This document shows positions 32,413-35,400 of a DNA stretch of 64,000 nt, piece by piece; positions within the stretch are counted from its first letter, which is position 1, and each line of letters starts with the position of its first letter. Source of the DNA: Gavia stellata (taxonomy: Eukaryota; Chordata; Aves; Gaviiformes; Gaviidae). The translations under genes and the position numbers were made by a program. The stretch spans positions 6,421,034 through 6,485,033 of the forward strand of contig NC_082618.1 of the NCBI RefSeq assembly GCF_030936135.1. Direction: 5' to 3'. The notes below the pieces were generated by a model. It worked only from the letters and a program-made list of their open reading frames with translations, was not told the DNA's origin and searched no databases.

Positions 32413-35400
32413 CTAAGCTTGTTCCTTCAGCTTCTTCAGCAGCTCCCTCAGCTGCTCGATCTGGGCATTCACGCTGTTCTTGGCGGTACCGCCCATGGCC
32501 CTGTACTGCTCCACGCTGTTGACAATGTTGAAGACCTGGGAGACGTCGTTGCCAAACAGGGGGCTGGGGAGACAAAGAGAAGAGGTGTCAGTGGAGAGCG
32601 CTGGGTGCTCTTTGCTGGCTTTCCATGTTGACTGCCAGCAGAGAGGGGGAAGGAGTGGAGACGGAGCCTTTTTCCAAGGGGAAAGGCCTCCTGCAGCCCT
32701 GCTTTTGCACTTGTAGTGCCTGGCAGTAGCTGCTTGTGGCAGACCAAAGAGTCAGCTCCGAGGGGAGAGTGAGGAAGTTTGGAGCCAAACTCTTCTGGAG
32801 GGCTGGTGCCTCCAGGTCAGGGCAAGAGTTTCTTCCAGTCCCTCCCAATAGGTGCTGTCCATGCCCTGCTGGGGCTGAATGGTAGTCATGTTGTCCCCTT
32901 TCAGTGTTTTCAGCAGTAGCAGCAGCAGCATTGATATTCAGGCCAGGAGGATTTTGGGGTGCTGTCTGGCCCCGGCCTTCCGGGGAAGGGCACCATAAGG
33001 AGGCCCATACAGAGGGAGGCTGATACCTGCCTGCTGAGGAGAGAGATGGCAAAATAATAGTGATAACGAACCTGATGGTCTTCATGTCATCCAGGCTGAG
33101 ATTGTTGATGGTCGTGCCTTTAGACTCGGCAAGGTGGACGACCTTCCCAGAGGCAATGTGGGCTTGTCTGAATGGCATCTGCAGTGAGAAGCAGAGACCA
33201 TAGTCAGTGCCAGGCAACTGGGGTACAGCCTCAAAGGAAAAAATGGATGTGATGTCTTTTTTGGTTGGCTTGTTTTCACTTAGGGCAATGCAATCTCAGT
33301 CCAGGTTTGTTGACCCAGACTGCTCATCACCTGGGGACAGAACAGAGGCCTCATCTCAGGCCCTCGCTGAGCAGCATTCTGCATCCAAAGAAATCACAGC
33401 TCCAAGTCTCCCTCTGATACTTACTCCTTTACGAACCAAGTAGAGAGCCAGATCAGATGACAGCATCTCAGGGCTCAGATCCTTCTCCATGTTCTCCTTG
33501 TTGATCTGCAGAAAGGATGGTCAGAGGGAGACATTATCATCAGCTCCTCCTTGGGGACACGTTAGCTGACATTGGGAGCCATAGTGAGCCGTATGGGTGA
33601 GGTACTAAGAGCCTTCATCTTAGGACCGGTCTAGAGCTCTCTTACCTGGGTTAGTCACAGAATGTGCACCCCAGCCATGTTCAATAGTGAGAGTCTGAAG
33701 CCTTACCTGGAGGGTAGAAATCACTCCAGTGGCAACCTGGAGCACAATGTTCAGGGTGTCCACAACATCAAAGACGGCCTCCTTGTCCTCCTGTGTTACA
33801 ACAGGGATGGAAATTGCTGTAAGTCAACCTGGTGCAGCCCAAAGCCCAACAGCCTGAGCAGCCCCGCCAGCAGAGCAGGCATGTCACCCCAGGGGCTCCT
33901 GCTGGGGGCCGGGGTGTCAGCTGCAGCACGCCGTGCCTCAGCCCCTTTCTCAGCATCCTGCACACAAGCAGGGTCTGTGCAGGGACATGTAGTGGCAAGA
34001 CTGCTCGCGAGCAGAAGACAGCTGTGTCTGCTCAGAGAGGTGGTGTGAAAAGTAACATCTGTCTTACCTGCAGATCCTTGTTGTAGGTGCTGGGAAGTCC
34101 TTTGAGAACCATGAGAATAGCAGCCAACTGCAGAGAGAAACAGGTGAGGCGGTTAGTTCTAGGAAGAGAAGCACATTGCCCCAGCAGAGGCTCAGAGCCT
34201 AGGCTGGCCCATTTCTCTACAGGGAGGCAAGAAGAAGGAACATTCTTCAGCCCCGGTATGAGCAGTTTCCCCATCCCGCTTCTTTCTTTAGCAGGCTCAC
34301 CCGTCCGAACACTCGTCCAGCTTTGCTGCGGATCAGTTCCAGACTGTCGGGGTTCTTCTTCTGAGGCATCAGGCTGCAGCCAGTGCTGAAAGAAAAGGTG
34401 TGTGCTGTGTAATGGTGAGCAAGACCCCAGTCCCTACAGACACAGGCTCAGACAGGTCATGCAGCGTACTGGCCCAGCCCTCCAAAAGCGACACACAGGT
34501 CCCCCTTCCCCAGACACCTTTCTAGGGTGTAGGAAAGCAGTGAACTGAGTGTGCTGAGTTTCTCCTGTTGCCCACAGCAAAGCCTTTGTTTTTGCAGTCT
34601 TGTCTGGAGCTACCAGGCAGTCCCACCTCTCCAAGAGGAAGCAAAAAGGAGGCTTTCCCCCAAGCCGCGCCATAGGTGGTATCAGCAGGCCAGCCTAAGT
34701 GTTGCTGTGACCTCAGAGAGGGAGGGCTGTGGTTGTGCCGGCCTGAGAGAAGGAAATCTCTTGGGATTGCAAACCCGGCCAGCCAAGGAAGGGCTTTGGC
34801 AGGCATTCCAGCAGGGGAGGAAGTTCTTTCTGCCAGCAGTTGCTGGGGAGGAGTGTCTGCTGAATGCAGACTTGTTGGGTTACCAGAATCAGAAAAAAAG
34901 TGGTCATTACTGAAGGATATTCACCCTAAGGCTGCCTTTCTGCCAGCCTTTTAATGCTGTGTCAGCCTTGTGCAGCTGGGAGATCCCCACCACTGTCTCA
35001 TTCTCTCAGGTGAGGATAGCTGAGGAGAATTACTCCCCAGAGAGCAGAGACCTACCAGTAGGTATCAGAGAGGGTTAGAAAGCCAAACTCGCTGGTACTG
35101 TAGATGATGAGATCTTCAGCCATCTTGCTAAGGTGGATCATCAGCAGGGTGGCAAAAGAGAAGAATTCCACTGCAGAGAAGGCAGGAAATCAGGAGGTGA
35201 AAAGGGTGCTTGTTTGCTTGACAACCAGGGAGCCCTGACTGGACCTTTGGAGTTACTTCCTAGTGAGGGATTTGAGTCCCCTTTGGAGTTACTTCCTAGT
35301 GAGGGACTTGAGTCCCCTTGTTAAAGGAGGTTAACTGGGAAGGTCTCAGAAGCCTGCTTCTAAAATAGTGCTGGGAAGATGTAATTGGGTTGTGCTTACC

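Follow-up and report, generated by a model that had tools for sequence, protein, structure and literature searches.

Birds use argininosuccinate lyase (ASL) also as a lens protein; delta-crystallin is the example on which the concept of gene sharing was founded, and an inactive delta-1 beside an active delta-2 is the textbook case of chicken and duck. The active site takes the 280s loop from one subunit and its other residues from neighbouring subunits. In the excerpts available, two reports describe delta-1 as inactive and delta-2 as active in known birds (PMC2779060; PMC9012887), and the former describes each active site as composed of regions from different subunits (PMC2779060). The chicken and duck delta-1 gene (ASL1, CRYD1), whose product is presumed to be structural and inactive, resembles genes described here in lying in tandem with delta-2/ASL and in having a DC5-like core; the array described here differs in that two of its genes have Cys281, unlike the delta-1 chains displayed, and in that it includes a broken copy.

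The window, i.e. the whole 64-kb stretch of DNA that was analysed, contains a bird delta-crystallin/ASL array of four gene copies, all on the minus strand. The copies were modelled with splice patterns set by hand and with each exon border printed.

Copy A, 19107..27655, minus strand: intact, 16 exons, 466 aa, Ser278 and Ser281; putative live ASL/delta-2.
Copy B, 32413..40692, minus strand: intact, 16 exons, 466 aa, Cys278 and Cys281; 5' flank, exon 1 and intron 1 A-like, exons 7-16 D-like.
Copy C, 44646..49596, minus strand: broken; exons 2-6, 15 and 16 kept, signature exon absent.
Copy D, 54229..62284, minus strand: intact, 16 exons, 466 aa, delta-1-type N terminus, Cys278 and Cys281.

In the spliced models, all 16 exons of copies A, B and D are coding, their introns have GT/AG borders, and each copy encodes a 466-residue product. 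Exon 1 of copy C was looked for and not found, and the segments containing exons 7-8 and exon 14 are inverted; thus, the protein cannot be made from this copy. The inverted segments are located at 45545-46596, between exons 6 and 15, and the intervening exons were not found. Against the argH family profile TIGR00838 (cut-off 279.5 bits), copies A, B and D all scored above the cut-off (588.2, 581.7 and 580.4 bits, respectively), those of B and D far above it; this profile does not test catalysis. A search of the 1.32 Gb assembly with PF00206, performed exon by exon and scoring the best candidates, gave 18 matches, 14 of which are ASL exons in this window. The other four all belong to a single gene on contig C3; two of these exons, when translated, look like fumarase, and one of them keeps GSSIMP. 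Adenylosuccinate lyase, which is expected in a bird, was not among the PF00206 matches, indicating that the search was not exhaustive. Downstream of the array, there are glycosyl hydrolase family 2 exons at 10822-12323 on the minus strand; this gene is probably GUSB, as judged by synteny. By eye, a short tandem repeat of GCCCGCT is seen at 62375-62432, directly upstream of copy D exon 1.

The initial annotation had reported that the catalytic Ser281 is replaced by Cys in copy B together with a second Ser-to-Cys change at residue 278, and that copy A keeps both Ser residues. The interval in which this was noticed, 34301-35170, coincides exactly with two coding exons, 10 and 11, in copy B on the minus strand.

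Copy B exon 10, 35056..35170, minus strand: 3' end encodes ...DTY, followed by the TG of Cys278 at 35057-35056.
Copy B exon 11 (mobile 280s loop), 34301..34385, minus strand: Cys281 TGC at 34378-34376.
Copy A exon 11, 21061..21145, minus strand: Ser281 AGC at 21138-21136.
Copy D exon 11, 56237..56321, minus strand: Cys281 TGC at 56314-56312.

Codon 278 of copy B is split by an intron with GT/AG borders, with TG at 35057-35056 and C at 34385, and the exon models confirm both Cys residues in this copy. Copy A retains Ser at both positions, with codon 278 split into AG at 21829-21828 and C at 21145. The changes are, however, not specific to copy B, as copy D has both Cys residues, its codon 278 being split at 56761-56760/56321. 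The signature pattern, allowing up to three mismatches, gave three matches in the window versus none in 100 shuffles. A 121-base query spanning exon 11 and a little flank, in a search that likewise scored the best candidates, matched three places in the 1.32 Gb assembly, all in this window, with 100% identity for B and D and 99% for A; two of the three encode Cys and one Ser. Exon 11 of copies A and B differs at one of 85 bases, and this base distinguishes the Ser codon from the Cys codon. Because B and D are separate copies with 13 residue differences elsewhere, a base error at a single place is unlikely. In this search of the genome, no copy other than A was found to have Ser281.

Residue 281 of the window proteins aligns with the Ala of 1k7w, which we take to be an engineered Ser-to-Ala mutant of duck delta-2, supporting that this is the catalytic Ser column. 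In a PDB survey that leaves out 1hy0, 1dcn, 6iem, 6g3d and 6rx8, column 281 is Ser in 12 of the 13 chains displayed (1hy1, 1tju, 1tjv, 1auw, 1u15, 1xwo, 1tj7, 2e9f, 9ggi, 1i0a, 1aos and 1k62), the exception being the Ala in 1k7w. Among these, we take 1u15 to be duck delta-1, 1i0a turkey delta-1, 2e9f Thermus, 9ggi plant and 1aos human, and 1tj7 presumably is E. coli ASL, as judged by its match to an E. coli sequence. In the alignment, duck delta-1 and delta-2 and human 1aos have Ser at column 281 and copies B and D have Cys; moreover, both displayed delta-1 chains have Ser281, in line with the statement in the initial annotation that chicken delta-1, although inactive, keeps this residue. In the excerpt available, 1xwo is from goose (PMC2779060).

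Among the best 80 of at least 592 confirmed bacterial ASL candidates, which were found in a scan with an alignment containing copy B and with two patterns only, MPQKKNP and RNDQV[AV]TD, both of which omit column 281, Ser is present at column 281 in 80/80; at column 278, the same 80 sequences have Ser (34), Thr (20), Cys (20) or Ala (6). A pattern for GxSxMPxKxNP with Cys codons in column 281 matches copies B and D and was found in 0/398 plus 0/398 genomes (796 in total) from two phyla, those to which a Klebsiella and a Lachnospiraceae genome belong; the corresponding Ser form was found in 40/40 and 34/41 genomes, with the Cys pattern covering both Cys codons, the Ser pattern only the four TCN codons, and both requiring GxSxMPxKxNP. 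In the viral contigs searched, the Cys form had no match and the TCN form occurred at at least 120 loci, with 120/120 of those listed being in frame and 82 of these also matching an ASL profile at E < 1e-5. One of the 120 listed loci has Cys in the next column, 282. Altogether, among the ASLs and superfamily members sampled, none was found to share the Cys281 form. Given 80/80 Ser at column 281 versus 20/80 Cys at column 278 among the best bacterial ASLs, Cys281 is an anomaly and Cys278 is not; the suggestion that Cys278 is a second sign of a dead enzyme was, therefore, abandoned.

At 16 other presumed active-site positions, copies A, B and D as well as duck delta-1 and delta-2 are identical. 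We consider it likely that B and D are delta-1-type structural lens crystallins that have lost lyase activity through loss of the catalytic base and that A is the enzyme copy. This reading is based on the activities of delta-1 and delta-2 in known birds and on CreD, a member of the same superfamily in which, according to the part of the report available, the S302A substitution abolishes activity (PMC13411527). The general base is "assumed" to be His160/162 in the excerpt from one report (PMC2779060), while those from the CreD (PMC13411527) and aspartase papers name the loop serine as the base; whichever residue is the base, the loop serine is required in CreD. The proposal in the initial annotation of an enzyme-dead crystallin beside a live enzyme is partly supported: B and D have the lesion and A has Ser281, with the inactivity being a prediction. 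Such a pairing is already known as delta-1/delta-2, and it is by its kind of lesion that the present case stands apart.

Under the favoured reading, the B and D proteins would fold and assemble like ASL into homotetramers unable to catalyse the lyase reaction, with the proton-abstracting Ser281 replaced by Cys; substrate binding may persist, the other checked active-site residues being intact, and copy A with Ser281 would supply ASL activity. Because each active site is built from regions of different subunits, we infer that, when B or D assembles with A, some of the active sites in the tetramer should survive: those on an A loop should still work, and B and D would dilute activity rather than poison it. 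In copy B, the dead 3' half would have been placed under an A-like promoter.

Overall, B differs from A at 27 residues, D from A at 29, and B from D at 13. With duck delta-1 and delta-2 as outgroups, A52T, I194N, L243F, A276T, S278C, S281C, A341I, A363D and T371S are derived in B/D, while N18, V358, N396 and R402 are derived in A. Copy A resembles duck delta-2 and vertebrate ASL in Ser281, W9, K407 and all checked active-site residues, and differs from duck delta-2 in its own four residues and in Cys365, the only cysteine of A. B and D have two cysteines each, at 278 and 281 only; duck delta-1 and delta-2 have none. This is a contrast to the duck delta-crystallins, because human 1aos has several cysteines and the lack of cysteine is not a general ASL trait. 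Using M9, V14 and N407 as delta-1-type markers, which were chosen here from differences between duck delta-1 and delta-2, D has all three, with M9 and V14 in common with 1u15, while B has N407 but the duck delta-2 states W9 and S14. Moreover, exon 2 of copy D (60765-60959) encodes KMMAG instead of KLWGG, 1u15 being partly similar with KLMGG; copy D has delta-1-type changes at residues 8-10, and its N terminus is delta-1-like when compared with KLMGGRFVGS of 1u15. The displayed delta-1 chains 1u15 and 1i0a differ from B and D in keeping Ser278 as well as Ser281.

Between A and B in exons 7-16, dN was 0.027 and dS 0.041, counts too small for a strong dN/dS claim; the divergence of B/D from A in these exons does not appear clearly purified and would also fit drift, which counts against the favoured reading. 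Three of the eight B/D-derived changes in exons 7-16 lie within residues 276-281 (P 0.00025 if this stretch had been named beforehand, P 0.036 for any three within six residues); as the stretch was picked after the data had been seen, this clustering is weak as proof of selection.

In pairwise blastn comparisons, all four copies are at least 98.7% identical in a block spanning exon 2 or 3 through exon 6, and this block does not discriminate between A-like and D-like sequence. Outside the block, A and B are 99.5% identical over a 5.6-kb stretch with exon 1 and flanking sequence, whereas B and D are only 85% identical around exon 1; by contrast, B and D are 99.8% identical over 33305-34428, where A and B are about 95% identical. 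The 5' flank of copy D is distinct and its own. We conclude that copy B is a mosaic with an A-like 5' side and a D-like 3' side. The switch point would lie at some place from intron 1 to about 36294, a position within the intron that separates exons 6 and 7, and copy B looks like the product of an unequal exchange involving one delta-1-like and one delta-2-like gene. Exon 2 departs from this pattern: B (39061-39255) differs from A (26024-26218) at 9/195 bases versus 20/4149 in the surroundings (Fisher P 2.8e-6), i.e. about ten times more, and mostly by amino acid changes (F13L, T14S, N18D, P19A, K43M, A52T and S56P). Part of exon 2 of copy B (M43, T52 and P56) is D-like. Conversion from another copy or selection keeping the copies apart would both explain this excess.

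We take the intron between exons 2 and 3 in the window to correspond to the third intron of the chicken gene. In all four copies, this intron contains the same DC5-like element, one base off the published core.

DC5-like SOX2/PAX6 lens-enhancer core of copy B, 38452..38476, minus strand: located between exons 2 and 3 in the intron, with a single base difference to the chicken core.
DC5-like core of the other copies, minus strand: A 25415-25439, C 48793-48817, D 60156-60180.

The excerpt used as reference for the core sequence places chicken DC5 in the third intron (PMC4330359). The lens expression predicted for B and D by the favoured reading is less straightforward for B, as its promoter side is A-like and not D-like and strong lens expression of B is therefore not assured.

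Alternatively, B could be a recent, unexpressed chimeric duplicate drifting towards a pseudogene, with only D being a real crystallin. This would be consistent with the mosaic structure of B and with the neighbouring copy C being already broken; moreover, with one part of B so similar to A and the other part so similar to D, its open frame is no proof of constraint. However, all 16 coding exons and the splice sites of B are intact, and it retains the lens-enhancer core and the A-like 5' flank. We regard this alternative, which concerns B alone and is compatible with a structural, lyase-dead D, as possible but rather unlikely.

That B and D retain a slow lyase activity in which Cys281 still serves as the base, as a thiolate, is improbable. 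Ser-to-Cys is a very conservative change, Cys being nearly isosteric with Ser, and a thiolate might take over the role of the base, which counts against the loss of activity; the frames of B and D are open and the other checked active-site residues are all intact. Moreover, our literature search found no published Ser-to-Cys test at the catalytic position, so residual activity is possible. Opposing this, the Cys form was found in 0/80 of the best bacterial ASLs and by pattern in 0/796 genomes, suggesting that active enzymes in this sample do not tolerate it, the Ser-to-Ala form of CreD is dead in the part of the report available (PMC13411527), and D also has the delta-1-type changes at residues 8-10.

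The cysteine pair of B and D forms a C-T-G-C (CxxC) motif, three residues apart in the mobile active-site loop. We consider it doubtful, though conceivable, that Cys278 and Cys281 lock the loop through a disulfide or make up a redox-active pair of thiols, by which the catalytic base would have been traded for a redox function in the lens. Finally, it is very improbable that the additional copies arose during assembly, from haplotypes left uncollapsed or repeats joined wrongly, to which the very high identity of the units might point, because large indels, inversions and divergence specific to certain blocks set the units apart, the exon 11 query has three matches only, all on one 13.5 Mb contig, and the Cys codons are also present in D with its own 5' flank.

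Our literature search, with most subscription papers outside its reach, found neither Ser281Cys nor an array of four copies described. Within the literature and sequences searched, a lesion of the catalytic residue that is present in two intact genes, including a chimeric one, together with the CxxC pair, is new; the Cys281 form may already stand in the annotation of other birds.

In the delta-1 chains displayed, the catalytic Ser is kept even though delta-1 is reported to be inactive, and the change that ended activity is, therefore, hard to read there. Here, the probable loss of activity resides in a single catalytic codon in two intact genes beside a single intact enzyme copy, and the array preserves steps of recombination as well. 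Thus, the split of the enzyme and lens roles would be testable directly by the swap of one residue.
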